Source: Alphaproteobacteria bacterium (GTDB lineage: Bacteria > Pseudomonadota > Alphaproteobacteria > SMXP01). From it: DNA of 64,000 bases. Position numbers and translations under genes: made by a program. Of the stretch, positions 5,613-61,842 are shown piece after piece; the first letter of the stretch is position 1; every line of letters begins with the position of its first letter. The stretch spans positions 1 through 64,000 of the forward strand of contig JANQPV010000025.1 of the NCBI GenBank assembly GCA_028285305.1, read 5' to 3'. The notes under the pieces were generated by a model. It saw nothing but the letters and a program-made list of their open reading frames with translations. It was not told the origin of the DNA and made no database searches.

Positions 5613-5705
5613 CTGAGGTATGTCAATCGGCTGGCCGCATAGTGCGGCGAATCAACGCTAATAAGAATGTTCTCCAGGCGGAGATTGAGATCAACGGAGA
5701 TTTCA

Positions 5706-7226
5706 ATGGCGTACGGGCTAAAGCACTTTGCAGATCAATACCCTGATCGAATTATGGTTTCGGACGAAACTACAGCTCTGAATTGTGCCCAATTCAACGG
5801 ACGTGTTAACCAGCTCATTGGCCTTATGCGAGGTCGTGGACTGAAGACGGGGGATGCTGTTGCAGTAATCGCCCTCAACTGCACGGACTTTCTAAGCATC
5901 GCGTGCGCCTCGGCACTAAGCGGCATTTCCCTTGTGCCGGTCAACTGGCACTTCGAGGTTGAAGAGGCGACTTACATTGTCGAAAATGGTAATGCGAAAC
6001 TGATGTTCGTTGACTCTGCAAATCTCAATACGGCAAAAGCAGTCGCTGCACGAACAAAATGTTCCGATGTAGTCGTAATCGGTGACGAGTTGGATTCTGA
6101 ACTCGAAGCTATCAATGCTGATGAGCCAAACGAGCAACTCTACTACGCAAGTCCCATATTCTTTACTTCCGGGACAACGGGGCGTCCTAAGGCGACAAGA
6201 CTATCGCAAGCTCCAACCGATGTTCGGGTAGAAGAGGCCCTCGGTCGCATTCAAGAGAACGCGAAACTAAGCGGTATGCGTGAAGGCTTTGTTCACATGG
6301 TTGCAGGCCCGCTTTATCATGCCGGACCCATAGGTAATGCGGTGCCCGCGCTTCTCTTAGGAGGTCCAGTTTACATACTACCCAAGTTTGATCCAGAAGC
6401 CGCTCTAAGATACATCGACACCTATCGTGTTACACACACATTGATGGTTCCGATTATGTTCATCCGGTTACTGAAGTTACCTGAAGCCATCCGTGAACAA
6501 TACGACGTTTCTTCTTTGGAGTTCGTGTCACACATTGCTGCCCCCATGCCGCCTCAAGTGAAGCGTGAGATGATCGATTGGTGGGGGCCGAAGCTGTTCG
6601 ACGCTTATGGGGGATCGGAAATTGGAGTCATCACAAGGATATCTTCGGAGGAATGGCTGAATAAGCCAGGATCAGTCGGCAAACCGATTTCTCAGTTTTC
6701 GATCAACATCGTAGGTCCCGAAGACAATGTCTTGCCTGTTGGTGAGATCGGGCAAATATACATGATCAGCCACACGGCTGTTGATCTGGAATATATTGAC
6801 GATCCGGAGAGAACCGCCGCCGCGCACCGAGGCCCGAAAGAATTCACTCTGGGTGATATGGGATGGTTGGATGAGGACGGATATTTGTACTTGGCCGACC
6901 GCCGTGTCGATATGATCAATTCAGGTGGGGTCAACATATACCCCGCGGAAATAGAAGCGGTGATGCACGATCACCCGTCCATAGAAGACGTCGCCGTATT
7001 CGGGATACCGAACGAAGAGTGGGGACAAGAGGTTAAGGCTGCCGTCCAATTAGGATCTTCCACAGAGGAAACCGAAGAGTTTGCCAACGAGCTAAAGTCG
7101 TGGATGCAAGGAAAAATCGCGACATACAAAATTCCCAAGACGATCGACTTCCACAAAGAACTTCCTCGATTCAGTAATGGAAAGCTCCATCGACGGGTCT
7201 TACGCGATGCCTACTGGCCTCAGTAA
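5706..7226 (+). CDS. AMP-forming acyl-CoA synthetase / ligase
   Basis: A 506-residue member of the ANL adenylating superfamily, which activates a carboxylic acid to its acyl-AMP and then to the CoA thioester. The P-loop-like motif FFTSGTTGRPKA, the DAYGGSEIG segment (A5), the LYLADRRVDMINSGGVNIYPAEIE segment in outline (A7/A8 hinge) and the C-terminal PRFSNGKLHRRVL with the catalytic lysine are all present. The ATG at 5706 has GGAGA six bases upstream; the longer in-frame ATG at 5667 has no good site. It is transcribed divergently from the esterase-TetR-P450 block. It probably makes the CoA ester on which the mutase, hydratase and other enzymes of the island work (inference); acid specificity is unknown. 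Confidence 0.93.
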   Translation: MAYGLKHFADQYPDRIMVSDETTALNCAQFNGRVNQLIGLMRGRGLKTGDAVAVIALNCTDFLSIACASALSGISLVPVNWHFEVEEATYIVENGNAKLMFVDSANLNTAKAVAARTKCSDVVVIGDELDSELEAINADEPNEQLYYASPIFFTSGTTGRPKATRLSQAPTDVRVEEALGRIQENAKLSGMREGFVHMVAGPLYHAGPIGNAVPALLLGGPVYILPKFDPEAALRYIDTYRVTHTLMVPIMFIRLLKLPEAIREQYDVSSLEFVSHIAAPMPPQVKREMIDWWGPKLFDAYGGSEIGVITRISSEEWLNKPGSVGKPISQFSINIVGPEDNVLPVGEIGQIYMISHTAVDLEYIDDPERTAAAHRGPKEFTLGDMGWLDEDGYLYLADRRVDMINSGGVNIYPAEIEAVMHDHPSIEDVAVFGIPNEEWGQEVKAAVQLGSSTEETEEFANELKSWMQGKIATYKIPKTIDFHKELPRFSNGKLHRRVLRDAYWPQ

Positions 7227-7455: not shown

Positions 7456-8865
7456 CTACGCTTTTGAGATATTGATGACTTGGGCCTCAGTGAAATGTTT
7501 GAGTCCTTCCACGGAACCCTCGACGCCTAACCCGGACTCTTTGGCTCCGCCAAACGGAATGTGAGGCAATACAACTGAGTGTTGGTTGACCCACGCGGTT
7601 CCGCTGTTTAGACGCGCTGCTAGTTGAACGCCTTTTTCGACGTCTTGGGTCCAAATTGACCCACCAAGACCATAAGGACTGTCATTCGCTTGTTCGATGG
7701 CGTCGTCCACGTTGGAGAATTTGATAATGGGCAGGATTGGTCCGAAGGGTTCTTCTTCAACGATTCTGTCGCCTTTTTTTGCATCCGCGACAAGCGTTAC
7801 CGGAAAGTAATAGCCCGGTTTGTCCGGCACTTCTCCTCCGGAAAGAATTCTGGCGCCGGATTTTTTTACGTCTTCTAGGATGTCGCAGACCTTATCAAAC
7901 TGCATTCTGTTTTGGATTGGGCCGAGAGTCGTGTCTTCGTTGGTACCGTCACCGACGACTGTGTTGTTCGCGATCTTCGACAACTCGTCGCACACTTGAT
8001 CATAAATTTCTTCGTGGACGTACAAGCGCTTTATTGCCATGCAGATTTGGCCGCTATTGTTGAATGAGGTCCAAAAAAGACGCTCGGCAATTTGCTCCGG
8101 TTTCGCGTCAGGCAAGATGATCGCAGCGTCATTCCCTCCAAGCTCGAGCGTCACGCGCTTGAGCGTTTTAGCTGCTGCAGCAACTATTTTCTTTCCGGTA
8201 TCGGAAGATCCTGTAAAAGATATCTTATGAATGCCGGGATGTTCTACCATTTGACGGCCCAGCTCATCGCCGCCTGCTAGTACATTGAGGACGCCCGGGG
8301 GCAGTACTTTGTTGAACATCTCAGCGGCGCGCAGAGTCGTTAGCGGTGTGTAGGGCGATGGTTTGAGAATGACGCAATTGCCGGTTACAAGCGCAGCGAA
8401 TACTTTCCAATAGCCCAAAAGGAGCGGATAGTTCCACGGAGCGATAGCGCCCACGACTCCCAATGGCTTGTAATGCACTTCGATTCGCATTTCATCGGTG
8501 TCCTGTAGCGTTTGGTTGGCCAAATTCAATCCCGCTGTGGTCTTTGCGAATAAACTAGTGTACTGAACTTCTTGGGTGGCGTTGGAGCGAGGCTTGCCTT
8601 GTTCCTGGATGAGTAGGTCAATCAATTCGGCGGCATTTTCTTCGAGAGCTTTCGCCATCTCCAGCACGTAGTTTTTCCGTTCTTCGACTTTAAGGGATGA
8701 CCATTTGGGAAAAGCGGCAGTTGCGGCTTCTACCGCGACATCAAGTTGATGGACTGTTGCGCTGTGGCAGGATGCGAACACCTTCTCATCAGCCGGATTG
8801 ACGACTTCGATCTGCTCTGTCGACTGGACCATTTTGCCATTAATCAGATTTTCGAAAGATTTCAT
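7456..8865 (-). CDS. NAD(P)+-dependent aldehyde dehydrogenase
   Basis: A 469-residue aldehyde dehydrogenase that oxidises an aldehyde to its acid. The cofactor motif FTGSSDTGK, the general base Glu241 in LELGGND and the nucleophile Cys275 in NNSGQICMA are intact, as is the PWNYP segment. It is the last gene of a tight operon, and its ATG overlaps the stop of the B12-binding subunit gene by four bases (ATGA). Co-transcription with an acyl-CoA mutase suggests that it handles an aldehyde arising in the same pathway, upstream of CoA activation (inference). It converges with the acyl-CoA synthetase across a 229-bp gap in which I see no gene. Confidence 0.94.
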   Translation of the reverse strand: MKSFENLINGKMVQSTEQIEVVNPADEKVFASCHSATVHQLDVAVEAATAAFPKWSSLKVEERKNYVLEMAKALEENAAELIDLLIQEQGKPRSNATQEVQYTSLFAKTTAGLNLANQTLQDTDEMRIEVHYKPLGVVGAIAPWNYPLLLGYWKVFAALVTGNCVILKPSPYTPLTTLRAAEMFNKVLPPGVLNVLAGGDELGRQMVEHPGIHKISFTGSSDTGKKIVAAAAKTLKRVTLELGGNDAAIILPDAKPEQIAERLFWTSFNNSGQICMAIKRLYVHEEIYDQVCDELSKIANNTVVGDGTNEDTTLGPIQNRMQFDKVCDILEDVKKSGARILSGGEVPDKPGYYFPVTLVADAKKGDRIVEEEPFGPILPIIKFSNVDDAIEQANDSPYGLGGSIWTQDVEKGVQLAARLNSGTAWVNQHSVVLPHIPFGGAKESGLGVEGSVEGLKHFTEAQVINISKA

Positions 8866-9317
8866 GGTTTAGCTCCGTCAGCAGAATATTTTGGGTTGAT
8901 CTGGGCTTCTATCTTTAAAGTTGAAGCTTTGACGTTAATTCGGCAGAGGCGAAATGCAGCATCGACAATGTCCTCAAGAGAGGAGCCAGGCGGATAGACT
9001 TCTATATGTCGGTCTTCGAGCTCCTTTTTTGCCCAAGGCGCAATGGCGCCTCCCGCAAAAACGGGAACGCCCACCATACGTTCGTTAAGTTGATCAACAG
9101 TTTTATGAACAACTTCGATGTGCCCTCCTACGTTCAGCCCTACCAAATCGACATCTTGTTCGACGGCTGCTGATACAATTTCATCCGGAGTTGCCATACC
9201 GATCATTACAACAAGGAAGCCCGCCTCTTGGAGTCGCTTTTCGACAAGCGAAACACCGCGCCAATGGCCGTCCAGTCCAGTCTTTGCCAGTAGTATCTTC
9301 TTTCCCAGAGCACTCAT
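8862..9317 (-). CDS. Acyl-CoA mutase small subunit, cobalamin-binding
   Basis: A 151-residue stand-alone B12-binding domain, as in two-subunit isobutyryl- or 2-hydroxyisobutyryl-CoA mutases. The cobalamin signature DxHxxG is present as D16-G-H18-W-R-G21, in which His18 is expected to replace the lower axial ligand of adenosylcobalamin. The later Gly-Gly motif is VFAGGAIAP. The Ser-x-Leu motif of methylmalonyl-CoA mutase (VSSL) is replaced by LNVGGH, a departure from the norm. It lies nine bases after the large subunit gene and overlaps the aldehyde dehydrogenase start. It should form the holoenzyme with the product of 9327-10952. Confidence 0.93.
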   Translation of the reverse strand: MSALGKKILLAKTGLDGHWRGVSLVEKRLQEAGFLVVMIGMATPDEIVSAAVEQDVDLVGLNVGGHIEVVHKTVDQLNERMVGVPVFAGGAIAPWAKKELEDRHIEVYPPGSSLEDIVDAAFRLCRINVKASTLKIEAQINPKYSADGAKP

Positions 9318-9326
9318 GAGTAAAAC

Positions 9327-10952
9327 CTATACAGAAATGGGTGTTTGCCAGTCGCCGAATACATTCCTAAAAACATCCCCGATTTCTCCCATCGTGACTT
9401 CTGCATCCATCGCTTCCATCATTGCCGGCATAATGTTCGTGTCTGTTCGGCAAGCGGCTTCCAGGTCGCGCATTTTTTCTGCAGCGAGCTTAGCGCTTCG
9501 TTCTGACTTTACGCGGTTTAGTCGTTCGAGTGCGTGCTTCCACTCACTGGACGAAGACTTGAACCCATCTATATCGAACGGTGTCACATCATCGGCGAAG
9601 GCATTCAAACCAACAATTATCTTGCTGCCGTCGTCGATCGAAGCTTGTTCTTCGAACTGATTTTTGTGCGCTACTTGGTGAAGCCATCCGCTATCCAATG
9701 TATTCAGGAAACCACCGTGGGCTTCTATTTCGTCAAAGAACTCCCAAGCTTTCTCTTCGACTTGCGCGGTGAGAGTTTCGATGAAATAGGACCCACCCAT
9801 CGGATCGGCGACAGCACACAGATTGGTTTCGTTCTGTAGAATTTGCTGAATGCGCAGCGACATTTGATGGGCGTGTTCGGAGGGAATAGAAAGAGCTTCA
9901 TCGTATCCCGAAACACCGAGTGATTGTGTCCCTCCTAGAACACCGGCTAACGCCATGATGGTGCCTCGAACCAGATTGTTGAGAGGCTGCGGATACATCA
10001 TCATCGATCCAGCGGTCAGGCTGTGAATGCGCAGTCGTTGCGCCTTGTCATCATTTATGTTGTATCGTTTGGCCAAAAGCTCAGCCCACATCTTCCGTCC
10101 AGCGCGCAGTTTTGCGACATCTTCAAATAGATCCATGCCGACCCTGAAACTGACGCCGCCAACACCCTTTGCGGCGTCCACAATGGAGATGTTTCCCCGC
10201 CTTTGGATTTCATCAAGGTACTCGACGGCATTGGCAAAGACCGCTCCCAATTCTTGGTAGGCGTTTAACCCCGTATCCGCGCCATTGTAGCCGGCAATGG
10301 AAACCGGTACCCAATGCGGCATGTGCTCCGCACAGAATTCAATGATGTCGGCATTAAAACGCAGGCCAGTTTGGGTTGGCACCTGCTGTTTCGTCACGCA
10401 CCCAAGATAAGTAAGAAAGAAATCGCTTTGGCCCGTCCCAGGGAGCTTTCCAAGGTCTATTCCGCGTCTTCTTGCGACGGTCCAATAGCAAGCCAGTGCA
10501 TAAGGTCCGTGTTGCACAACACCGCCTCCTGGATGACCGTAAGTTGACTCAATCGGAATGCCCTTGAGCACAGTTTCATAGTCCCGAACACTTTGAATAG
10601 TCGCGCCGGTCAGACCCACGTCCTCACGGCGCGCCATCACCTCGGGGTGGTCCACATTATACAGATGATCTCCCGTATTGCGGTCGTGCTCCATAATGAA
10701 GCCGGTTTCGCCATGCTCCAAAAGAAACCTTATGCGCTCGCCCTCCTCTTCTGGACTGCCGAAGCCACTGAGCTGAAAAATTCGCCAAGGTTTGCTTCGG
10801 TACATCGAAGGGTAGGCTCCCCTTAGAAAAGGGGCTTGACCAGGCTGGCTCAGCATCGCCGTTCGGATTGACCGGGGTATATCATAGGATCCGTATACCG
10901 ATTTGATCGGAATGCCAGATCGTGATGCATAGGGTCTTTCGGTTTTCGTCAC
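9327..10952 (-). CDS. B12-dependent acyl-CoA mutase large subunit, unusual active site
   Basis: A 541-residue catalytic subunit homologous to the TIM-barrel domain of methylmalonyl-CoA mutase. Conserved family blocks are RGAYPSMYRSKPW (44-56), LNNLVRGTIMALAGVLGGTQSL (about 324-345) and ADPMGGSYFIE (382-392). By eye alignment Tyr51 matches Tyr89 of the Propionibacterium mutase, but the Arg207 position that binds the malonyl carboxylate falls near Val186, and the catalytic His of SGYH is Asn223 (AGYN). The normally invariant AFDLPT stretch reads MEHDRNTG. It is therefore unlikely to be a methylmalonyl-CoA mutase. The GTG start overlaps the upstream gene's stop (GTGA). No MeaB-type GTPase chaperone is nearby. 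Homology is secure, substrate unknown. Confidence 0.92.
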   Translation of the reverse strand: MTKTERPYASRSGIPIKSVYGSYDIPRSIRTAMLSQPGQAPFLRGAYPSMYRSKPWRIFQLSGFGSPEEEGERIRFLLEHGETGFIMEHDRNTGDHLYNVDHPEVMARREDVGLTGATIQSVRDYETVLKGIPIESTYGHPGGGVVQHGPYALACYWTVARRRGIDLGKLPGTGQSDFFLTYLGCVTKQQVPTQTGLRFNADIIEFCAEHMPHWVPVSIAGYNGADTGLNAYQELGAVFANAVEYLDEIQRRGNISIVDAAKGVGGVSFRVGMDLFEDVAKLRAGRKMWAELLAKRYNINDDKAQRLRIHSLTAGSMMMYPQPLNNLVRGTIMALAGVLGGTQSLGVSGYDEALSIPSEHAHQMSLRIQQILQNETNLCAVADPMGGSYFIETLTAQVEEKAWEFFDEIEAHGGFLNTLDSGWLHQVAHKNQFEEQASIDDGSKIIVGLNAFADDVTPFDIDGFKSSSSEWKHALERLNRVKSERSAKLAAEKMRDLEAACRTDTNIMPAMMEAMDAEVTMGEIGDVFRNVFGDWQTPISV

Positions 10953-11674
10953 TCTTTTGTTCCCGAACCCGTCTTGCCTGCCGAGGTTTTGGTCGGTTTG
11001 GTCAAGCCCAACCGATCATAATATTTGTCCGGAACATCGCCAGGGTCTTTGTAGATAATGAAGGAGCAAGGCTCTTTACCGAGATCTTTTGAGGGCTCGA
11101 CAACGACAAACGGGCTTCCGTTTTGTTCGATGTCGATCTGCTCCATGGCGGCTTCGTGAGCGCAATACACGGGAAAATCTGAGCGATCGTAGGTCATTTT
11201 TTGCGGTGTGGATACCTTCAGGAAGCCGTCTGGTCCGTCATACTTCCCTTCAAGCACCAGACGACCGCCGCTTCCGCAAGGCTTCATCTTTAGCGTGATC
11301 TTTTCATCATCTTCTTCGACGGACATAGGTTGCATATGACCTCGCAGTCCTGCGGCGAACATCTTCGCCTTTATGCTAAGATCGCCTTTTGAGCCTTCTT
11401 CCATGGCGGCCAAGTTGGGAAGCCACCAAGACTTTACTGTCTCCGTCATGACCTCGTCCAATACGCTATCACCGAAGCGCCGTCCGATTTCGCTGAGGAG
11501 CGCAGTCACCCAATTTCGATAACCGTCATGCTGGCTTAGAAACTCGTTGTACATCTTTTGCGCCAAGAGCTTTGAATTTGCTGTATCGCCATCCTCTATT
11601 GCGCTCAAAAGCCGGTCCAAAGTTCGTGTACCCATTTGTTCGAGTTCGGTATCGGAGAAAAGTCGCTTCACCAT
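10949..11674 (-). CDS. Unknown protein heading the mutase operon, conserved Cys/His motifs
   Basis: A 241-residue cytoplasmic protein that I do not recognise as a named family. An all-helical-looking N-terminal half (about 1-110) is followed by a C-terminal half with KPCGSGGRL (about 132-140), VYCAHEAAMEQ (about 168-178) and EPCSFIIYKD (about 202-211). Three cysteines with a histidine could bind a metal, or be catalytic. There is no P-loop, so it is not a MeaB-like GTPase. The C-terminal 20 residues are low-complexity and rich in Lys, Thr and Gly. It is translationally coupled to the mutase large subunit, so a role as auxiliary, assembly or partner enzyme for the mutase is inferred only from position. 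Confidence 0.85.
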   Translation of the reverse strand: MVKRLFSDTELEQMGTRTLDRLLSAIEDGDTANSKLLAQKMYNEFLSQHDGYRNWVTALLSEIGRRFGDSVLDEVMTETVKSWWLPNLAAMEEGSKGDLSIKAKMFAAGLRGHMQPMSVEEDDEKITLKMKPCGSGGRLVLEGKYDGPDGFLKVSTPQKMTYDRSDFPVYCAHEAAMEQIDIEQNGSPFVVVEPSKDLGKEPCSFIIYKDPGDVPDKYYDRLGLTKPTKTSAGKTGSGTKE

Positions 11675-11788: not shown

Positions 11789-12814
11789 GTGGGTAAACCA
11801 GTGAATAATCGCGTTATGCTCAGGCGCCGGCCTGAAGGCCTACCCAAGAAAACAGATTTCGAGTGGCGGACCGAAGGAGTTCCGCGTCCCGGCGATGGTC
11901 AAGTTTTGCTGCGGAATATCTATCTTTCCCTGGACCCCGCTATTCGTGGTTGGATGTCACCGGCTGAAAACAGCTACCAACCACCCATTGAAATCGGCGA
12001 GGTCATGCGCGGCGTCACTGTCGGCAGAGTTGAAGAAACCAACAATGCCAATTTCGCTGTCGGCGACTATGTGATGGGATTGAATGGTTGGGAACAATAC
12101 TCGATTTCCAATGGCCAGGGATTCATCAGCAAAATTCCTCCCCATCTGGATCTTCCGCTTTCGAATTTCTTGGGTGTTTTAGGAACCACTGGGCTCACAG
12201 CCTACTTTGGATTGCTTGAAATTGGCGGCCCAAAGAAGGGTGAGACGGTTTTGGTAAGTGCTGCGGCAGGGGCAGTGGGGTCGATTGTCGGGCAAATCGC
12301 GCAAATCAAAGGATGTAAAACGGTGGGTATCGCAGGAGGAAAAGAAAAGTGCGAACGCCTTAAAACCGTGTTCGGATTTGACGAAACGATCGATTACAAA
12401 GCGTCCGGCAGCATAGAAGAAAAAATTAGGTCAAGTTGCCCAGCCGGGATTGATATCTACTTCGACAATGTCGGGGGAGAAATACTGGATGGTGCCCTTA
12501 ATTGTCTTGCAGATGGAGCGCGGGTCGTCATGTGCGGCGCGATCTCAACATATAACGATGAAACGCCTACTACTGGTCCATCCAATCTCTGGCAACTTCT
12601 TGTCCACAATGCGCGCATGGAGGGGTTCATCGTCAGCAAGTTCGTAAGCGAGTTTCCCAATGCCATAAGCCAGTTGGGCCGATGGGTTTCCGAAGGCCGT
12701 CTACAGCATTGTGAGGAATTCGTTGACGGTCTGGAGAACGCACCGGATGCGTTTCTTAGACTATTTGATGGTTCTCACAGTGGAAAGCTTATCGTCAATC
12801 TGGGTCGCCTCTGA
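11789..12814 (+). CDS. Zinc-independent MDR-family NADP-dependent oxidoreductase
   Basis: A 341-residue relative of the enzyme at 1229-2254, of the leukotriene-B4 dehydrogenase/curcumin reductase type that reduces enone or enoyl double bonds. It shows LDPAIRGWMS, the nucleotide-binding AAAGAVGSIVGQIAQ, VGIAGGKEKCERL and YFDNVGGEILDGAL motifs in the same order. The GTG start has AGGAGGAG eight bases upstream. It is transcribed divergently from the mutase operon, behind operator copy 1. Both paralogues keep the same core, but the regions lining the substrate pocket differ, so different substrates in one pathway are plausible (inference). Confidence 0.9.
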   Translation: MGKPVNNRVMLRRRPEGLPKKTDFEWRTEGVPRPGDGQVLLRNIYLSLDPAIRGWMSPAENSYQPPIEIGEVMRGVTVGRVEETNNANFAVGDYVMGLNGWEQYSISNGQGFISKIPPHLDLPLSNFLGVLGTTGLTAYFGLLEIGGPKKGETVLVSAAAGAVGSIVGQIAQIKGCKTVGIAGGKEKCERLKTVFGFDETIDYKASGSIEEKIRSSCPAGIDIYFDNVGGEILDGALNCLADGARVVMCGAISTYNDETPTTGPSNLWQLLVHNARMEGFIVSKFVSEFPNAISQLGRWVSEGRLQHCEEFVDGLENAPDAFLRLFDGSHSGKLIVNLGRL

Positions 12815-13209: not shown

Positions 13210-13968
13210 ATGGGAAGACTTGATGGTCGAGTTGCAATCGTCACCGGTGGGGCACAAGGAATTGGGGCAGAGTATGCTCGTGCGCTTGCCCGAGAAGGAG
13301 CTCGTGTGGTTGTGGCGGACATTCAAAGTTGCGATGCATGCGTTGCTGCAATCAAAGAGCAAGGAGGCGAAGCCCTTGGACTGTCGGTGGATGTGACGGA
13401 TAGCGCTTCCATCAGCGAGATGGTTTCAGCCGCGGAATCCACATGGGGAACCGTACACATCCTGGTCAACAATGCAGCTATCTTTGCCAGCCTCCCGCTG
13501 CGGCCATTTATGGAAATTCCTGATCAGGAGTGGGAGGCGGTTATGAGTGTAAATGTCGGTGGATTGTTCAAGTGTGCTAAGGCCGTTGTACCTGTCATGA
13601 AGAAAGGGGGAGGAGGCAAGATCATCAACATCTCCTCAGGGACGGTCATGAATGGTTCGGCAATGCTTCTTCATTATGTGACATCCAAATCCGCCGTGAT
13701 CGGGTTGACGAGGTCATTGGCACGAGAGCTCGGCGAGTCAAATATATGCGTCAATGCCTTGGCACCGGGGTTCACCCTAAGCGAGGGGGTGCAAGCCAAT
13801 GATGGATATTCGGAGCCGCTCCGCGCCGGAATCAACGCTCAACGTTGCATAAAGAGGGATCAAAAGCCGGATGACCTTGTGGGGACGCTATTGTACCTTG
13901 CTTCATCCGACAGTGATTTTGTGACAGGGCAGATGGTTCTTGTCGATGGCGGCATGTACACGCACTAA
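13210..13968 (+). CDS. Short-chain dehydrogenase/reductase (SDR)
   Basis: A 252-residue classical SDR, an NAD(P)-dependent alcohol/ketone oxidoreductase. The cofactor motif is TGGAQGIG, followed by NNAA, the catalytic Ser in INISSGT, and YVTSK as the Tyr-x3-Lys pair. The C-terminal TGQMVLVDGGMYTH is standard. An acidic residue after the second strand (VVVADIQ) suggests NAD+ preference, hence probably the oxidative direction. The ATG follows a GGAGAA sequence. Its promoter carries operator copy 2, tying it to the island's regulon. Probable role: oxidation of a hydroxy intermediate such as a P450 product or a hydroxyacyl-CoA (inference). Confidence 0.93.
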   Translation: MGRLDGRVAIVTGGAQGIGAEYARALAREGARVVVADIQSCDACVAAIKEQGGEALGLSVDVTDSASISEMVSAAESTWGTVHILVNNAAIFASLPLRPFMEIPDQEWEAVMSVNVGGLFKCAKAVVPVMKKGGGGKIINISSGTVMNGSAMLLHYVTSKSAVIGLTRSLARELGESNICVNALAPGFTLSEGVQANDGYSEPLRAGINAQRCIKRDQKPDDLVGTLLYLASSDSDFVTGQMVLVDGGMYTH

Positions 13969-13996
13969 AGCAAAATGTGGACGATCTTAAATGTGG

Positions 13997-14038
13997 TTGA
14001 CACTGCACCATGCAAAAATTAGACTGACGCGTCAGTCA
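13997..14038 (+). promoter_or_regulatory. Strong promoter with perfect operator copy 3
   Basis: TTGACA (13997-14002), a 17-bp spacer and TAGACT (14020-14025) form a near-consensus promoter. The perfect 14-bp palindrome ACTGACGCGTCAGT (14023-14036) starts within the -10 box and covers the start site. It is the best copy of the three and the likely defining site of the regulon. It drives the di-iron protein gene and probably the genes after it. Confidence 0.65.
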
Positions 14039-14074
14039 AAATAGTTTCAACAAATTAGAGCGCGGAGGAATTCT

Positions 14075-15265
14075 ATGCCCTTTCCAATTGATAAGCGACT
14101 TGCGGAAGTACTTTGGTTTCCTGCGCCAGATGTTATTCCCCAACTTTGTGCAGCGGTTAGTGCTGTTCCGATGGACGTATGGAACTCAACTGAGGATCTG
14201 TATGAGCTCGCGGATATCATGGAGCCTTATCTTGAGCAGCATGGTGGGCGGAAGTGGGACTTTATCTGGTCAATGGAGCGCCATTTCTCTGAACCGTATG
14301 GTCCGTTGCCCAAGGCAAAACAAACTTTTATGGCGGGCATTCCCGATGAATTCTTGCAGGATGCTGGCGGTCTACCGGAAAACGTCGGTTCTTACGAGGT
14401 CGGTGGCGTCAGCGACGTCAGATTTGTCCGTGATGACACAGAAGAGATTGAGGCACAGCCGTATCAATACGAAGCTGGCGATGATATGCCGGAAGAATAT
14501 CGTTTCTGGTTGTCGAAGCTGTTCTTTAAGCACGGCGAATGCATGATGCCCTACTTTGGGGAAGCGGCCAAAGGGCACAAGAGCATGTTTAGTGCTATTG
14601 ATGCGTTCTCCTTAGAGGCTGCTCCGGATGCGGAGTCTCGCCTGAGGCAGCAAAACTTTACAGCGGAAGAATACAAGCACACGTTCCAGTTCTACAAGCT
14701 ATACAACGAGTACGATCCAGAAATACCAATACAGATCTATGAGCGTGAGCGCGAGACTTTCCGTGCCTATGAGCAGACTGCGATGGAGAAGACCTGGGTT
14801 GACCGTGGTCTTTACAATATGCTGGCGGATCGCTTTGGCGTGTATCAAGGGTTCCAGTGGGTGCAATCGTCCTATGCGCCGCTCGCACGGGTTTCCTTGT
14901 TGGTGTGCAAAGACGAACGTGGCCACAGCAATATGGGCTATCTCCATGTCCGGGATTCTATCGAACTGTGGGGTGAAGATGCACGAAAGGATGCGCAGCG
15001 GCGCGTAGACGAGTATTGGTACCCGCAATTCATGGCGTCTTTTGGGGCGGATGACTCACGCAACAGTAAGATGTGGCGTAAGTGGGGTTTGAAAGAGCTG
15101 ACCAACGGCCAGATGCGTGACGCATTCCATCTTGAGATGGTAGAAGTGCTCGAGAGCTTGAATCTCGAAACGCCAGACAAGGATAAAGCCCTAGCCCGGG
15201 GCATGGAGATGGCGGAAGAAGTCAAGAAGAAGATGGCAGGAATAGCCGTCAAGAAGTCCGCTTAA
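14075..15265 (+). CDS. PaaA-like ferritin-fold di-iron protein
   Basis: A 396-residue protein resembling the catalytic subunit of phenylacetyl-CoA epoxidase and related di-iron oxygenases. Two ExxH motifs, E199-Y-K-H202 and E281-R-G-H284, lie about 80 residues apart, with acidic residues in FKHGECMMPYFGEAAKGH (152-168) as further ligand candidates. The PaaB, PaaC, PaaD and PaaE partners are missing here, so it is not a normal paa operon. It could be a stand-alone oxygenase or use electron donors encoded elsewhere. It stands behind the strongest operator of the island and precedes a luciferase-like oxidoreductase gene, so oxygen insertion or epoxidation in the island's pathway is inferred. The ATG has GGAGG upstream. 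Confidence 0.75.
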   Translation: MPFPIDKRLAEVLWFPAPDVIPQLCAAVSAVPMDVWNSTEDLYELADIMEPYLEQHGGRKWDFIWSMERHFSEPYGPLPKAKQTFMAGIPDEFLQDAGGLPENVGSYEVGGVSDVRFVRDDTEEIEAQPYQYEAGDDMPEEYRFWLSKLFFKHGECMMPYFGEAAKGHKSMFSAIDAFSLEAAPDAESRLRQQNFTAEEYKHTFQFYKLYNEYDPEIPIQIYERERETFRAYEQTAMEKTWVDRGLYNMLADRFGVYQGFQWVQSSYAPLARVSLLVCKDERGHSNMGYLHVRDSIELWGEDARKDAQRRVDEYWYPQFMASFGADDSRNSKMWRKWGLKELTNGQMRDAFHLEMVEVLESLNLETPDKDKALARGMEMAEEVKKKMAGIAVKKSA

Positions 15266-15431
15266 TGATGGTTTGAGGCGCATTTGGCGTTTCCTTTACC
15301 TATCAGATTATCTAGACGGGTTTGGCAAATACGATTGGTGCACTGATTCAAGTGTGCCGATCGTCTGTGCGTAGGGCTTGACCGGCGGGCTTTTTTTGTC
15401 TTAGCGATAATGAGAATGGTGAGAAAGTCTG

Positions 15432-16631
15432 ATGAAGTTTGGGGTGTTTTACGAATTGCAGCTCCCGCGGCCGTGGGAAGAAGATAGCGAACACAAATTG
15501 TTTAGCAATGCCCTTGATCAGGTGGAGTTGGCCGATGCTCTGGGATACGATTATGCCTGGATGGTGGAACATCATTTCCTGGAAGAGTACTCTCATTGCT
15601 CGGCACCTGAAGTATTTTTGGGCGCCGCTAGTCAGCGTACCCACAATATCAGATTGGGGCACGGCATTATCCAATTGCCCACAAACCATCCGGCCCGTGT
15701 GGCTGAAAGAGTTTCGACACTAGACTTGTTAAGTGACGGGCGAGTGGAACTTGGAATAGGGGAAGGGTCGAGCGTAACAGAACTCCATCCATTTGGCAGA
15801 AAGTTTCGTGACAAGCGGGCTGTATGGGAGGATGCCGTAAAGGCTTGCTTGCCAATGTTTTGGAATGACTCATGGGAATACAAAGGTGAGTATTTTGAAT
15901 TTCCAAAACGCAATGTGATTCCTAAACCAATGCAGAAACCACACCCTCCGCTTTGGGTTGCCTGTTCGCAGCTGGAAACGATTACTTATGCAGGCTCTCG
16001 TGGTATGGGTGCGCTGGGCTTCCAGTTTGTCGACGCCAAATCGGCGCAGGCGTGGCGTCACGCATACTACAATGCATACCTCAATAGTCTAGATAAGCTT
16101 TGCGACTATCAAACAAATCCGAATTTGGCGGTTGTGGCTCCCTTTATGTGCTGTGAAACCGACGAGGAAGCACAAGAAAAAATGGATGGGTGGACATTCT
16201 TTCAATTTGCGCTGGTCCTTTACAGCAAAGAAGGTCCATTCGAGCCCGGATCAATAGACTTCTGGGAGCGATATGAGGAGTGGAAAAAAGAGAACAAGTC
16301 CAAGCACGTTCCCAATAGTGGCTTGGTGGGGTCTCCGGAAACAATCCGCAAAAAGCTCAGAGAATTCCAAGAGGCTCGCATCGATCAAATTATATTGTTG
16401 AACCAGGCCGGTAAGAATGCTCATGAGGATATCTGTGCAAGTCTAGAGCTTTTTGGCCGTGAGGTTATGCCGGAATATCAGGCTCAAGACGCAGATCATC
16501 AGGAATGGAAAGCCAAAGTGCTTTCCGGAGACATCGTATTGGAAGAGATAGATACGGATCCCTACAATGCCTACTCAACCCAGACGCCCGTCAGTGTTGT
16601 TCGAAAGGCTGAAAAGGCCGGTGCGAACTAG
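15432..16631 (+). CDS. Luciferase-like (LLM) flavin-dependent monooxygenase
   Basis: A 399-residue LLM-class enzyme, closer to the bacterial luciferase alpha-subunit/alkanal type than the one at 170-1192. Diagnostic segments are VEHHFLEEYSHCSAPEVFL, RLGHGIIQLPTNHP and DLLSDGRVELGIGEGSS, with QKPHPPLWVACS later. The C-terminal VGSPETIRKKLREF segment is the usual one. It would use reduced FMN from a separate reductase to insert oxygen, for example by Baeyer-Villiger chemistry. It lies 166 bp after the di-iron gene; a run of seven T residues in the gap could mark weak termination, but no strong hairpin is seen. The substrate is not deducible. Confidence 0.9.
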   Translation: MKFGVFYELQLPRPWEEDSEHKLFSNALDQVELADALGYDYAWMVEHHFLEEYSHCSAPEVFLGAASQRTHNIRLGHGIIQLPTNHPARVAERVSTLDLLSDGRVELGIGEGSSVTELHPFGRKFRDKRAVWEDAVKACLPMFWNDSWEYKGEYFEFPKRNVIPKPMQKPHPPLWVACSQLETITYAGSRGMGALGFQFVDAKSAQAWRHAYYNAYLNSLDKLCDYQTNPNLAVVAPFMCCETDEEAQEKMDGWTFFQFALVLYSKEGPFEPGSIDFWERYEEWKKENKSKHVPNSGLVGSPETIRKKLREFQEARIDQIILLNQAGKNAHEDICASLELFGREVMPEYQAQDADHQEWKAKVLSGDIVLEEIDTDPYNAYSTQTPVSVVRKAEKAGAN

Positions 16632-16676
16632 GATCCATCGGTGAGCGGGGTTAAGGCAGATTAGGAGGTCAGACTT

Positions 16677-17186
16677 ATGGCGAGAATTGCACCTAAAGAC
16701 ATTTCTGACATTCAGGATGATATTCCAGAAGCAGAAAAGAAATCCGGCGTTGTTTTAAACCGTACTCGGACCATGGCGCATGTGGCCGGACTTCCGAGGA
16801 CTATTGCTTCAGTTGAGAGATTTATAGGTGAACACGGATCACTTTCGCCGGAGGTCAAAGCCGTGGTGATTGCCAGCACAGTTAGAAGGAGCCCTTATGA
16901 GCTTACGCGTTTAAGGCCCGACCTTCTGGCTGCGGGGCTGACATCAGATATATTGGAAGCCATTGAGGAGGAGGATTGGACCGAACCGACTCTTTCCGAA
17001 CATCAGAAAATAGCGTTCCGATTTGCATTGATGTACGACGCCGGGCACGGTATCCCCGACGCCATATATGAAGAGTTACAGGAGAGTTTTTCTGTTCCCG
17101 AGATCATCGAACTCGCGGCTGTATGTGGTCATTATGGGGGGCTGGCTCGCATGGCCATTGCGCTTTCTTTTGATATGGAAGAATAG
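16677..17186 (+). CDS. Carboxymuconolactone decarboxylase-like (CMD/AhpD fold) protein, no CxxC
   Basis: A 169-residue all-helical protein of the CMD/AhpD superfamily, recognisable from LSPEVKAVVIASTVRRSPYELTRLRPDLLAAGLTSDILEAI in outline and the final AAVCGHYGGLARMAIAL segment. The family's CxxC redox pair and general-base His are absent from the expected helix (TVRRSPYELTRL), so it is not a peroxidatic AhpD. The ATG has AGGAGG upstream. It lies between the LLM monooxygenase and enoyl-CoA hydratase genes, nine bases before the latter, so it is almost certainly co-transcribed with them. A lyase or hydrolase role in the pathway is possible but unproven. Confidence 0.8.
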   Translation: MARIAPKDISDIQDDIPEAEKKSGVVLNRTRTMAHVAGLPRTIASVERFIGEHGSLSPEVKAVVIASTVRRSPYELTRLRPDLLAAGLTSDILEAIEEEDWTEPTLSEHQKIAFRFALMYDAGHGIPDAIYEELQESFSVPEIIELAAVCGHYGGLARMAIALSFDMEE

Positions 17187-17194
17187 GAGAGGGA

Positions 17195-17986
17195 ATGAGC
17201 GAACCGGTAATCAAAGTCGAAAAAGAGGGTCATCTGACCATCATTACAATCAATCGTGCCGACAGGCTCAACGCACTTGATGCCGATGCAGGTCGAGCGC
17301 TTGGCGAGGCATTTACAGAATTCGAGAATGACAGGGACCAATGGGTCGCTATATTAACGGGTGAGGGCCGGGCTTTCTGTACAGGGAATGATTTGGTTGC
17401 TATGTCCCAAGGCGGCGCCGGTGCGGGACAGCGACCGAGACCTGGATCGCATGGGTTTGGCTTTGGGTCAATCTGCAAGCGGTTTCCGCTCTACAAACCG
17501 GTGATTGCAGCAATCAACGGATATGCTGTTGCCGGAGGCCTAGAACTGGCGCTGGTTTGTGACATCTTGATCGCATCGGAAAAAGCAAGGTTTGGATTGA
17601 CAGAGGTGCGCTGGGGATTGATGCCCATGGGGGGTGGTACACAGCGTTTGCCAAGGTCCATCCCAAGGGCGTGGGCAAATTATCTCCTTTTGACCGGCGA
17701 TCAGATTGGTGCCGAGGATGCGCAGAAAATAGGGCTGATCAGTCATGTTGTGTCTGAGGAGGAACTCATGCCGAAAGCCCGTGAAACTGCTGATATGATC
17801 CTCAGCCGCGGCCCACTTGCTGTTTGGGCTGCAAAGGAATCAAGTCTGCGCGGCGCAGATTTACCTTTAGAACAGGCGTTAGCTTACGAAGACGCAATCG
17901 GATCGCAGGTCCTTCACAGTGATGATTCAAAGGAGGGTCCGAAAGCTTTTGCCGAGAAGCGCGCGCCCAACTTCCAGGCGCGTTAG
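17195..17986 (+). CDS. Enoyl-CoA hydratase/isomerase (crotonase family)
   Basis: A 263-residue crotonase-fold enzyme acting on an acyl-CoA. The oxyanion-hole segments are GRAFCTGNDLVAMS and INGYAVAGGLELALVCDILIA; the catalytic-Glu region is LTEVRWGLMPMGGGTQRLP, where Glu in TEVRWG corresponds to one of the hydratase glutamates. The Gly-rich insert GGAGAGQRPRPGSHGFG after the first segment is longer than in fatty-acid hydratases and sits near the acyl pocket. It follows the CMD-like gene by nine bases. Hydration or isomerisation of a ring-derived enoyl-CoA is the likely role. The next gene converges on it. Confidence 0.92.
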   Translation: MSEPVIKVEKEGHLTIITINRADRLNALDADAGRALGEAFTEFENDRDQWVAILTGEGRAFCTGNDLVAMSQGGAGAGQRPRPGSHGFGFGSICKRFPLYKPVIAAINGYAVAGGLELALVCDILIASEKARFGLTEVRWGLMPMGGGTQRLPRSIPRAWANYLLLTGDQIGAEDAQKIGLISHVVSEEELMPKARETADMILSRGPLAVWAAKESSLRGADLPLEQALAYEDAIGSQVLHSDDSKEGPKAFAEKRAPNFQAR

Positions 17987-49683: not shown

Positions 49684-51399
49684 ATGAGCGAACATGATCT
49701 TGTAATTCGTAACGGGACGATCATTGATGGGTCCGGAGCGGAGCGAAGAACCGGAGACGTTGCTGTTTCCGACGGCAAAATTGCTCAGGTTGGTAAAGTC
49801 GAAGGGCGAGGCAAACGCGAATTGGATGCCGGTGGGCGGCTGGTGCAGCCGGGTTTTGTGGACATTCATACTCATTACGATGGTCAAGCGACTTGGGATT
49901 CGCAATTGGCGCCCTCCAGTTGGCATGGGGTGACAACGGCCGTCATGGGGAACTGCGGCGTTGGATTTGCGCCCGTCAAGCCCCATGACCGCGAAAGGCT
50001 CGTACAATTCATGGAGGGAATTGAAGATATTCCTGGTACGGCCTTACATGAAGGCCTGCCGTGGACGTGGGAGAGCTTCGAAGAGTATATGGATATGCTC
50101 GACTCAATTCCTCACGACATCGACATCGCAGCTCAAGTTCCCCATGCGGCGTTGCGGCTCTATGCGATGGGGGAACGCGGTGTGACCAATAATCTTGCGA
50201 CTTCAGACGACATTCATGTGATGGGGGATCTGGCGAAGCGAGCCATACTCGCCGGCGCACTCGGCTTCACCAGCTCCCGGACCGTGAACCACAAATCGTC
50301 GCTGGGCGAAACAACGCCAGGCGTACATGCGGCCTTTGATGAGATGGTGGGTATCGCTGAAGCTGTCGGTTCAACGGGGAAAGGCGTGCTGCAGCTTATC
50401 AGTGATTTTAGAGATTTTGAGAAAGAATTCGGAATGGTGACTGAGATGTCGCGCCGTTCTGGTCGGCCGATTTCGATATCGATAGGTCAAACTTATATCA
50501 AACCGGAGAACTGGCGGCGTTTGCTTGATGCGATGACCAAAGTACGCTCTGAGGGCATTGAGATGAGGGCTCAGGTTGCGACAAGGGCAATCGGGGTCAT
50601 GCTCGGTCTTCAAGCAACGACAAATCCATTCGATGATTGTCCCGCATATCAAGCAATTGCAGACCTTCCATTGAACGAGCGCGTTGCCCGAATGCAAAAC
50701 CCTGAACTGCGCGCTAAGATCCTCAATCAGTACAAAGAGCGGTATAAGGACGAAGCAGATAAACGGCAACGAAAGCGCTGGGAAACAATCTACGAGCTGG
50801 GAGACCCACCGAACTACGAGCCTGATCCCTCTACGGCGATTGCATTCAAAGCCAAAGAAAAGGGCATCAGCCCGGCCGAACATGCCTATGACTACATGCT
50901 TCGCGATTCAGGAAAAGCGATGCTCTACATGACAATCATAAATTATGTCGATGGCAATTTGGATTGCGTGCGCGAGCAGCTCATGCATGAGGCTGCTGTG
51001 CCCGGACTGTCGGATGGGGGCGCCCACGTAGGCACCGTCTGTGATGTCAGTTTTCCAACCACACTCATGCAATGGTGGGGTCGGGACCGCCCCCATGATC
51101 GTATTCCGGTTGAAACAGTCGTTCACAAGCAATCAAGGGCGACCGCGGAAGCCGTTGGATTGCTTGACCGTGGGCTGATTGCTCCTGGATACAAAGCCGA
51201 CATAAACGTCGTTGACTTCGACAAGCTCCGTCTTCATGTCCCTACAATCGTCCACGATCTTCCCGCAGGCGGAAAAAGATTTCTGCAGAAGGTGACCGGC
51301 ATCGACCACACATTCGTGTCGGGTATCGAAGTGGCATCGAACTCTGAGTCGACCGGCGCTACGCCAGGGCGGTTGGTTAGAGGAGAACAATTCGTATAA
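49684..51399 (+). CDS. Amidohydrolase-superfamily protein, D-aminoacylase-like
   Basis: A 571-residue metal-dependent hydrolase of the N-acyl-D-amino-acid deacylase group. Metal-site features are FVDIHTHYDGQ (His-x-His) and VMGNCGVGFAP (the Cys found in D-aminoacylases), with the catalytic Asp expected in GLSDGGAHV. It is about 90 residues longer than classic D-aminoacylases (about 480), as in many environmental relatives annotated only as amidohydrolases. A paralogue lies at 60118-61842. The ATG has GGAGTGGAG upstream. It follows the epoxide-hydrolase gene by 25 bp. It probably cleaves an amide, or another C-N or ester bond; the substrate is unknown. Confidence 0.88.
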   Translation: MSEHDLVIRNGTIIDGSGAERRTGDVAVSDGKIAQVGKVEGRGKRELDAGGRLVQPGFVDIHTHYDGQATWDSQLAPSSWHGVTTAVMGNCGVGFAPVKPHDRERLVQFMEGIEDIPGTALHEGLPWTWESFEEYMDMLDSIPHDIDIAAQVPHAALRLYAMGERGVTNNLATSDDIHVMGDLAKRAILAGALGFTSSRTVNHKSSLGETTPGVHAAFDEMVGIAEAVGSTGKGVLQLISDFRDFEKEFGMVTEMSRRSGRPISISIGQTYIKPENWRRLLDAMTKVRSEGIEMRAQVATRAIGVMLGLQATTNPFDDCPAYQAIADLPLNERVARMQNPELRAKILNQYKERYKDEADKRQRKRWETIYELGDPPNYEPDPSTAIAFKAKEKGISPAEHAYDYMLRDSGKAMLYMTIINYVDGNLDCVREQLMHEAAVPGLSDGGAHVGTVCDVSFPTTLMQWWGRDRPHDRIPVETVVHKQSRATAEAVGLLDRGLIAPGYKADINVVDFDKLRLHVPTIVHDLPAGGKRFLQKVTGIDHTFVSGIEVASNSESTGATPGRLVRGEQFV

Positions 51400-59889: not shown

Positions 59890-60117
59890 TAGGTTAAAAA
59901 AAACGGAATCCGAACATGACACTTTTCATCGGAGTGTTTTGTCAGGTGACAGGAGCCGGAGACTACGAAAAGCGAACTTGCACGCTCAAAGAGAGCCCCC
60001 TCGAAAGGGATATCTTAGGTCAACATATTCGCTCAATGGATAGAAACTGAGTATACGGAGAGGTTGCCGTTCTCGTGATGTGAAACAACCACCAGAAAGA
60101 TGCAAAAGGAGAGGGTG

Positions 60118-61842
60118 ATGGCTGAACACGATCTGGTAATTCGAGATGGAACCATCATCGACGGGACCGGTGATCCGCGTCGATCAGGGGATGTCGCAGT
60201 ATCTGATGGCCTCATTACCGAAGTGGGCAAGATCTCTGGCCGTGGCCATCGTGAAATTGCTGCAGACGGGCGATTCGTTCAGCCGGGTTTTGTTGATATC
60301 CACACGCACTATGACGGCCAGGCCACATGGGACTCCCAACTTGCGCCTTCGAGTTGGCACGGCGTAACGACGGTGGTGATGGGCAATTGCGGCGTCGGCT
60401 TTGCGCCAGTCAAACCAACTGACCATGAACGTCTGGTTCAGCTGATGGAAGGTGTAGAGGATATTCCGGGTACAGCCCTTCATGAGGGTCTTCCCTGGGC
60501 GTGGCAGGAGTTCGAGGAATATCTGGACTATCTAGACGGGAAACCGCGCGATATTGATGTCGGCGCGCAACTCCCTCACGCGGCACTTCGCCTCTTCGTG
60601 ATGGGAGAAAGAGGCGCTGCCCGTGAACCGGCCTCGGCCGACGACATAAATGCGATGGCAGACATTTCTCGCCAAGCAATTGAGGCGGGCGCGTTAGGAT
60701 TCTCGTCCTCTCGCACGGTCCGTCACAAATCGTCGCTTGGAGAACCGACCCCAACCCTGAACGCAGAATTCGCCGAGCTCATTGGAATTGCAAAGTCAAT
60801 CGGATCAACAGGTCGGGGGGTCATCCAGCTCATAAGCGACTTCAAAGACTTCGATACCGAGTTTGAATTAGCGAAGGCAATGGGGCGGGAGTCGGGACGC
60901 CCGGTGTCAATATCGGTTGCCCAAACGTCCGCCGATCCGACCAAGTGGAAAAGGCTACTGGACGCAATGTCCGCGGAGACGGCCCGAGGCATAACAATGC
61001 GAGGTCAAGTGGGAGCCCGTCCTATCGGAGTTCTTCTCGGGCATTTGGGATCGGTTAATCCGTTTAAGGAGTGCCCAACGTATAGAGAACTTCGGTCGCT
61101 ACCATTTGCCGATGTCGTCAAAAGGATGAAAACCGAACCTGTGAGATCTGCCATCTTGCGGGAGATGGAAGAGCTTGGGCAAGCGAAGGGAAACCCGGCA
61201 CGGTCACCCTATCAGTGGGACAAAATCTATCCTCTCGGTGAGCCGCCAGTTTACGAACCTAATCCGATCACGTCTCTGTCGTATCAGGCGTTTGAACGAG
61301 GCGTTGCGCCAGCAGAAATTGCTTATGATTACATGCTGGGTGATGAAGGCAAGGCCTTGCTCTATATGCCCATCGCCAACTTTGTGGATTGGAATTTGGA
61401 TGTGGTTCGCGAGCAATTTCTACACGAAGCTTCTGTGCCTGGTCTATCGGATGGAGGCGCCCATGTTCGTACCATCTGTGATGTGAGCTTTCCGACAACG
61501 TTGATGCAATGGTGGGGTAGGGATAGGCCTCGCGGACGAATTCCTGTCGAACAGATCGTCGCAAAACAGTCGCGTGCGACCGCCGAGGCCGTTGGACTTT
61601 TCGATCGAGGTCTCATAGCACCGGGGCATAAGGCAGACATCAATGTGATCGACTTTGAGGCGTTGACACTGCATGGGCCAGAGATCGTCAACGATCTTCC
61701 GGCGGGAGGCAGCCGATTCCTCCAACGTGTTACTGGTATTGATCACACCTTCGTCTCCGGTGTTGAGGTTGCGAGCAATTCTGAGTCTAGCGGAGAACTG
61801 CCGGGGAGTCTCGTACGAGGCGGTAAAAGCGTGTGCCGGTAA
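60118..61842 (+). CDS. Amidohydrolase-superfamily protein, D-aminoacylase-like (paralogue)
   Basis: A 574-residue protein with the same architecture as 49684-51399: FVDIHTHYDGQATWDSQLAPSSWHG, VVMGNCGVGFAP and GLSDGGAHV. By eye well over half of aligned positions are identical, and the first 110 residues are much closer. The Lys/Asp-rich middle (about 330-420) differs most, probably at the substrate face. I use the ATG at 60118 with AAAGGAGAGGG upstream; an earlier frame start at 60100 is unsupported. It follows the PQQ gene by about 230 bp, in which no gene is seen. Confidence 0.88.
   Translation: MAEHDLVIRDGTIIDGTGDPRRSGDVAVSDGLITEVGKISGRGHREIAADGRFVQPGFVDIHTHYDGQATWDSQLAPSSWHGVTTVVMGNCGVGFAPVKPTDHERLVQLMEGVEDIPGTALHEGLPWAWQEFEEYLDYLDGKPRDIDVGAQLPHAALRLFVMGERGAAREPASADDINAMADISRQAIEAGALGFSSSRTVRHKSSLGEPTPTLNAEFAELIGIAKSIGSTGRGVIQLISDFKDFDTEFELAKAMGRESGRPVSISVAQTSADPTKWKRLLDAMSAETARGITMRGQVGARPIGVLLGHLGSVNPFKECPTYRELRSLPFADVVKRMKTEPVRSAILREMEELGQAKGNPARSPYQWDKIYPLGEPPVYEPNPITSLSYQAFERGVAPAEIAYDYMLGDEGKALLYMPIANFVDWNLDVVREQFLHEASVPGLSDGGAHVRTICDVSFPTTLMQWWGRDRPRGRIPVEQIVAKQSRATAEAVGLFDRGLIAPGHKADINVIDFEALTLHGPEIVNDLPAGGSRFLQRVTGIDHTFVSGVEVASNSESSGELPGSLVRGGKSVCR

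Follow-up and report, generated by a model that had tools for sequence, protein, structure and literature searches.

The operon at positions 7456 to 11674 of the window (i.e., the whole 64,000-nt stretch of alphaproteobacterial DNA that we analyzed) encodes a two-subunit homolog of methylmalonyl-CoA mutase (MCM) whose clade is monophyletic, keeps the mutase fold and the B12-binding motifs, and has an active site that is rebuilt yet strongly conserved. Our favored explanation is that the pair is a working adenosylcobalamin (AdoCbl)-dependent mutase in a subfamily of its own, probably performing a 1,2-shift of the 2-hydroxyisobutyryl/pivalyl type on a branched acyl-CoA larger than 2-hydroxyisobutyryl-CoA. 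Mutase function and substrate are what we infer, and we can only guess at the substrate class from the neighboring gene families. The first-pass annotation had proposed an undescribed carbon-skeleton rearrangement; this survives as the best guess, with a non-standard active site outside the MCM, 2-hydroxyisobutyryl-CoA mutase (HCM), ethylmalonyl-CoA mutase (ECM), and IcmF classes, but its altered positions and operon traits required correction.

The locus and its two mutase subunits

On the minus strand, four open reading frames overlap or nearly abut from 11674 to 7456, and the genes around them supply the context discussed below:

10949..11674 (-): Cys protein, 241 aa (PCGSGGR ... YCAHE ... 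PCSF), overlapping the large subunit by 4 nt
9327..10952 (-): mutase large subunit (TIM-barrel, substrate-binding), 541 aa, GTG start; PF01642, E = 4.6e-140
8862..9317 (-): mutase small B12-binding subunit, 151 aa, DGHWRG and GG intact; PF02310, E = 2.6e-16
7456..8865 (-): aldehyde dehydrogenase, 469 aa, overlapping the small subunit by 4 nt; PF00171 (Aldedh), E = 3e-152
11789..12814 (+): MDR-family NADP-dependent oxidoreductase, divergent from the operon and kept in the two nearest relatives (L009 and L063)
13210..17986 (+): divergent set of SDR, PaaA-like di-iron protein, luciferase-like monooxygenase, short unassigned protein, and enoyl-CoA hydratase, with identical gene order in L009
2633..3916 (-): cytochrome P450, context gene
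5667..7226 (+): AMP-binding acyl-CoA ligase, context gene

Elsewhere in the window, two look-alike amidohydrolase-type genes (MSEHDLVIRNGTIIDGSG / MAEHDLVIRDGTIIDGTG) lie 9 kb apart, at 49684-51399 and 60100-61842.

In a profile search, the large subunit matched MM_CoA_mutase (PF01642) with 468 bits (cut-off 22). Its best HMMER match among solved structures was the 2-hydroxyisobutyryl-CoA mutase HcmA (305 bits), followed by the methylmalonyl-CoA mutases, and it matched IcmF with 121 bits only. A predicted model built with 40 relatives (pLDDT 88.7) superposed in Foldseek on HcmA (4r3u; TM 0.93) and MutB (1req; TM 0.92), so that profile and fold both bear out the homology to methylmalonyl-CoA mutase first read from the sequence. 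The small subunit, which matches PF02310, is the B12-binding partner and carries both DxHxxG and GG. Across the 60 non-redundant full-length or nearly full-length members, including the window, that a genome-contig scan yielded at an identity of at least 47%, the small-subunit gene is present at 60/60 loci, and both its DGHxxG motif (D16, H18, G21; already recognized in the window) and its GG (89-90) are conserved at 60/60. Together, the two subunits would constitute an AdoCbl-dependent enzyme for the 1,2-rearrangement of a CoA ester.

A rebuilt and strongly conserved active site

Residues of known mutases are given in the literature numbering of P. shermanii MutB (PDB chain sequence index + 1). 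Three codons of the large subunit mark the central replacements:

10284..10286 (-): Asn223, at the MutB His244 position in the HMMER alignment to solved mutases; 60/60 in the clade
10398..10400 (-): Cys185, at the MutB Arg207 position (Gln in HCM); 58/60 in the clade
10689..10691 (-): Glu88, at the MutB Ala116 / HcmA Asp117 position, within GFIMEHDRNT; 60/60 in the clade

The alignment agreed with the first-pass annotation that the SGYH histidine is represented by Asn223 and that the AFDLPT block of known mutases is replaced, reading MEHDRNT here. It differed for the Arg207 position, which had been placed near Val186 and is in fact Cys185, Val186 being its neighbor. In addition, MutB Tyr89 corresponds to Leu61, again in 60/60 members. 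No His occurred within five residues of Asn223, and no Arg beside Cys185, in any of the 60 members, which excludes realignment of either residue to an adjacent position; the non-standard active site thus stands. Sequencing error behind the Asn and Cys is likewise excluded, as the replacements are conserved across the clade, and their frequencies (N223, L61, and E88 each 60/60; C185 58/60) indicate that they are due neither to chance nor to error. The IcmF, ECM, and HCM sequences that we compared all have the His, as the first-pass annotation had stated for the isobutyryl-, ethylmalonyl-, and 2-hydroxyisobutyryl-CoA mutases. His244 of methylmalonyl-CoA mutase contacts the thioester carbonyl, and mutants of this residue are slower, not dead, making Asn plausible at this position in a working enzyme; the structure of an H244A mutase (1e1c) was among the Foldseek matches.

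Judged from the alignment, the remodeling extends much further than the three residues first noticed. Where most or all MCM, HCM, ECM, and IcmF sequences agree, the clade has Arg57 for Thr85, Phe59 for Arg87, Ile/Leu for Ser114, Tyr/Phe for Ser162, His140 for Ser164, Gly142 for Thr166, Val215 for Asn236, Gly266 for Ser285, Ser/Asn for Phe287, and Val/Leu for Gln330, and has lost Arg283. In the 1req, 4req, and 2xiq structures, these positions presumably line the CoA/substrate channel of methylmalonyl-CoA mutase. Asn223, Leu61, Arg57, Phe59, Glu88, His140, and Gly266 are invariant in the clade of 60, and His89 and Arg91 nearly so, while the B12-side and core residues T195, Q197, Y243, H328, Q361, S362, and E370 are retained in at least 58/60. 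The mean majority frequency was 0.88-0.94 in six of seven active-site blocks versus 0.50 in the N-terminal and 0.66 in the C-terminal part. Nearly all CoA/substrate-tunnel residues of the known classes thus appear to have been replaced and conserved anew, with the B12 side kept.

Loss of the classic substrate residues could also mean that the protein is a catalytically dead or structural subunit, like the MutA beta chain of methylmalonyl-CoA mutase. We hold this to be very improbable: conservation at 60/60 loci extends to the B12-side residues and to an intact B12 subunit dedicated to this protein, the active-site blocks are the most conserved parts of the protein, MeaB is linked, and no second large subunit is adjacent. 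The MutA beta chain itself has none of the seven retained B12-side and core residues.

Use of a CoA ester is not certain, because T85, R87, S114, S164, T166, N236, R283, and S285, which we take to be the positions that bind the CoA tail in the known classes, are lost. A descendant of methylmalonyl-CoA mutase might have given up the CoA tunnel and the catalytic His to rearrange, by radical chemistry, a substrate that is not a CoA ester or is otherwise unprecedented (a free acid, an alcohol, or a small polar molecule, cf. glutamate mutase), the ligase then acting on the product. The exchange of nearly all tunnel residues conserved in MCM, HCM, ECM, and IcmF for other invariant ones, and the new polar or charged residues among them (invariant R57, E88, and H140; near-invariant H89 and R91), speak for this scenario. 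We nevertheless consider it unlikely, given that T195, Q197, and H328 are retained, that the large residues lost (R283, F287) offset the gains, so that the outcome may be a reshaped tunnel and not a closed one, and that the mutase is linked, in unrelated lineages, to genes for CoA ligase and enoyl-CoA hydratase, in some cases also for acyl-CoA dehydrogenase.

Placement among known mutases

The clade was collected with two scan patterns, namely, GFIMEHD, which lies inside the active site, and N[VI]MPAMM. Thirteen of the 60 members were found without GFIMEHD, via N[VI]MPAMM, and all 13 carry Glu88 and Asn223; the ascertainment bias for the GFIMEHD block is small but real. The relatives are 47-73% identical and come from Halieaceae, other Gamma- and Alphaproteobacteria, Actinomycetota, and Myxococcota. 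In a maximum-likelihood tree (quick search, SH-aLRT supports only) with 28 clade representatives, the Asn223 clade formed one side of a branch with SH-aLRT 100, and the MCM, ECM, HCM, and IcmF sequences lay elsewhere; deep branching order is uncertain because some outgroup branches are long. The window protein falls within this monophyletic group and has its Asn223, Cys185, Leu61, Glu88, Arg57, Phe59, and His140. Scoring the Tyr89, Arg207, and His244 positions alongside the tree, as the first-pass annotation had suggested, placed it outside the MCM, HCM, ECM, and IcmF sequences compared. On this sequence evidence, the Asn223 clade appears to be a subfamily of its own in the methylmalonyl-CoA mutase superfamily and, as far as we searched, a new one: a literature search restricted by licence returned neither a description nor an assayed member. 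The clade is rare, with two other genomes among 385 of the class and none beyond the window's own among 398 of the phylum.

The known classes differ from the window enzyme in distinct ways. Methylmalonyl-CoA mutase (human MUT, P. shermanii MutB) has the same fold and shares E370, Q361, H328, Y243, T195, and Q197, but its Tyr89, Arg207, and His244 are Leu61, Cys185, and Asn223 here, and the window enzyme has loop insertions and a B12 domain on a separate chain. Ethylmalonyl-CoA mutase, of the same family, keeps the Tyr, Arg, and His and occupies another branch of the tree; the window protein neither groups with it nor has these residues. IcmF (isobutyryl-CoA / pivalyl-CoA mutase) catalyzes the type of 1,2-shift on a branched acyl-CoA that the window enzyme would perform, and it uses a MeaB-type G protein, but it is a fused protein, with G-protein and B12 domains, and keeps the His; the window protein has neither this fusion nor the active-site His.

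The closest characterized system is HcmAB of Aquincola tertiaricarbonis, which is similar in its two subunits, its fold, an acidic residue on strand 1 (Asp117 / Glu88), and its operon logic (oxygenase, dehydrogenase, and CoA ligase). Asp117 of HcmA reportedly touches the substrate hydroxyl. The window enzyme could be proposed to be a disguised 2-hydroxyisobutyryl-, isobutyryl-, or pivalyl-CoA mutase that acts on a known substrate with the aid of compensating substitutions, as HcmA tops both the sequence and the fold matches among solved structures, and a separate small subunit and Glu88 at the Asp117 position recall HCM. This, too, seems improbable to us, since the identity to HcmA is only ~33%, the clades are separate, Ile90, Asp117, Gln208, and the His of HCM are Leu, Glu, Cys, and Asn here, and the classic tunnel Ser/Thr/Arg residues that HCM keeps are nearly all replaced in the Asn223 clade.

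The nearest branch in the tree comprises mutases of Ca. Methanolliviera (oil/asphalt archaea), which likewise have Asn at 244 and Cys at 207 but are archaeal and ~35% identical, retain much of the classic tunnel (T85, R87, S162) and Ala116, and are without the MEHDRNT block. Several mutase genes lie adjacent in these contigs (L074 1783-8161; L073 1-5327), each with its own B12 subunit, and every copy that covers the His244 position encodes Asn there. A Rhodospirillaceae MAG mutase (L076 9953-11575) lies on a separate branch, with Asn at His244 and Pro at Arg207; the His may thus have been lost more than once, and Asn at 244 does not by itself mark the clade, being found in the Methanolliviera and Rhodospirillaceae proteins as well. 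The window's own genome contains another non-standard two-subunit mutase, L122 (G000:C72, 5873-7875, minus strand), with Phe at His244 (DTYFFSESG) and Cys at Arg207, which falls outside the Asn223 clade. Two contigs labeled Klebsiella pneumoniae (L012) and Janthinobacterium lividum (L031) are MAG records whose labels look doubtful, because the mutase sequence (for L012, also the neighborhood) fits gammaproteobacterial clade members.

Gene neighborhoods and the candidate substrate

Neighbors were counted at the 32 loci whose two flanks each reached at least 7.5 kb, a set dominated by related Halieaceae: CoA ligase genes occurred at 29, MeaB at 22, iron-containing alcohol dehydrogenase at 21, luciferase-like monooxygenase (LLM) and P450 at 18 each, and enoyl-CoA hydratase at 16. 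Halieaceae loci usually carry P450, luciferase-like flavin monooxygenase, TonB receptor, CoA ligase, TetR, and iron alcohol dehydrogenase on one side and, divergently, mutase large and small subunits, MeaB, and often acyl-CoA dehydrogenase and enoyl-CoA hydratase on the other, some with a lactonase-like metallohydrolase as well. Their flavin monooxygenase is nearest to dimethylsulfone monooxygenase and RutA, below the cut-offs of both. Actinomycetota tend toward nitroreductase-like protein, mutase, CoA ligase, and MeaB. The window, L009, and L063 share Cys protein, mutase, and aldehyde dehydrogenase, divergent from the MDR gene, and the window and L009 further share SDR, PaaA-like di-iron protein, flavin monooxygenase, and enoyl-CoA hydratase. 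Between the three lineages, CoA ligase identity is only 23-28%, so the mutase recurs beside non-orthologous ligases; as neighbors vary between lineages, one single pathway is unproven. A Ltp2-like thiolase, ChsH2-type protein, or CoA-transferase lies close by in the nearest relatives, with Ltp2-like genes at L063 7306-9838 (with a ChsH2-type protein) and L009 15393-16544. Pairing of Ltp2 with ChsH2 is known from retro-aldol cleavage of the steroid side chain.

Two operon traits of the window proved to be local. Its lack of MeaB, correctly noted at first, is a trait of the window's lineage and not of the enzyme: MeaB adjoins the mutase in most relatives, sits within the set in L009 and L063, and is encoded twice in the window's genome, both copies outside the operon. 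Likewise, the Cys protein and the aldehyde dehydrogenase are both present in the operon as described, but they characterize this lineage rather than the enzyme. The dehydrogenase ortholog, at the equivalent place in L009 and L063, is confined to these two and the window. The Cys protein occurs at the same 3/60 loci only, which rules it out as a core mutase partner; it is a lineage-specific accessory. Its family has no Pfam entry above cut-off, the model of the window protein is poor and of low confidence (helical bundle plus beta domain, pLDDT 52), and no solved relative was found. The N-terminal helices weakly matched the B12-binding cap PF02607 (E = 0.05 in the window, 8e-4 in one homolog). 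Relatives of ~30% identity in other Alphaproteobacteria (L126-L133; PCGSGGR ... YCxHC ... PCxW) have genes for CoA ligase, SDR, CoA-transferase, or thiolase close by, as read by eye from translations.

For the favored acyl-CoA mutase, the superfamily suggests that Co-C homolysis would generate an adenosyl radical that removes a substrate hydrogen, whereupon the carbonyl-thioester group would migrate to the adjacent carbon and the product radical would recover hydrogen. Asn223 may fill the hydrogen-bonding role of His244, Glu88, His89, Arg91, Cys185, and His140 may recognize a different substrate, and MeaB, usually adjacent, would load and guard the cofactor. From context, the substrate could be a branched acyl-CoA whose alpha carbon is tertiary or quaternary and which exceeds 2-hydroxyisobutyryl-CoA in size. 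During the breakdown of alicyclic or terpenoid compounds, it would be supplied by P450/flavin oxygenase together with alcohol or aldehyde dehydrogenase and an AMP-dependent CoA ligase; comparing P450 and CoA ligase with solved structures for typing indicated no substrate. Such an alpha carbon would be a natural reason for this mutase, as it blocks beta-oxidation and the shift would lift the block, which is the part that 2-hydroxyisobutyryl-CoA mutase plays for MTBE and isobutylene. The isobutylene ibc cluster combines oxygenase, dehydrogenases, CoA ligase, B12 mutase, and a MeaB-like protein (PMC13188929), and the present context resembles this MTBE/isobutylene route, except that the genes here would suit a larger alicyclic or terpenoid skeleton.

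The gene occurs in named strains, i.e., Pseudohaliea rubra DSM 19751, Haliea alexandrii, Kineobactrum sediminis, and Acidithrix ferrooxidans, and is thus directly testable. The characterized mutases compared (MCM, HCM, ECM, and IcmF) have one catalytic His and one CoA tunnel in common, and a conserved clade without that His and tunnel would reveal which residues radical B12 chemistry needs. The clade may also point to an unrecognized aerobic route by which marine and freshwater bacteria break down branched or quaternary carbon skeletons.
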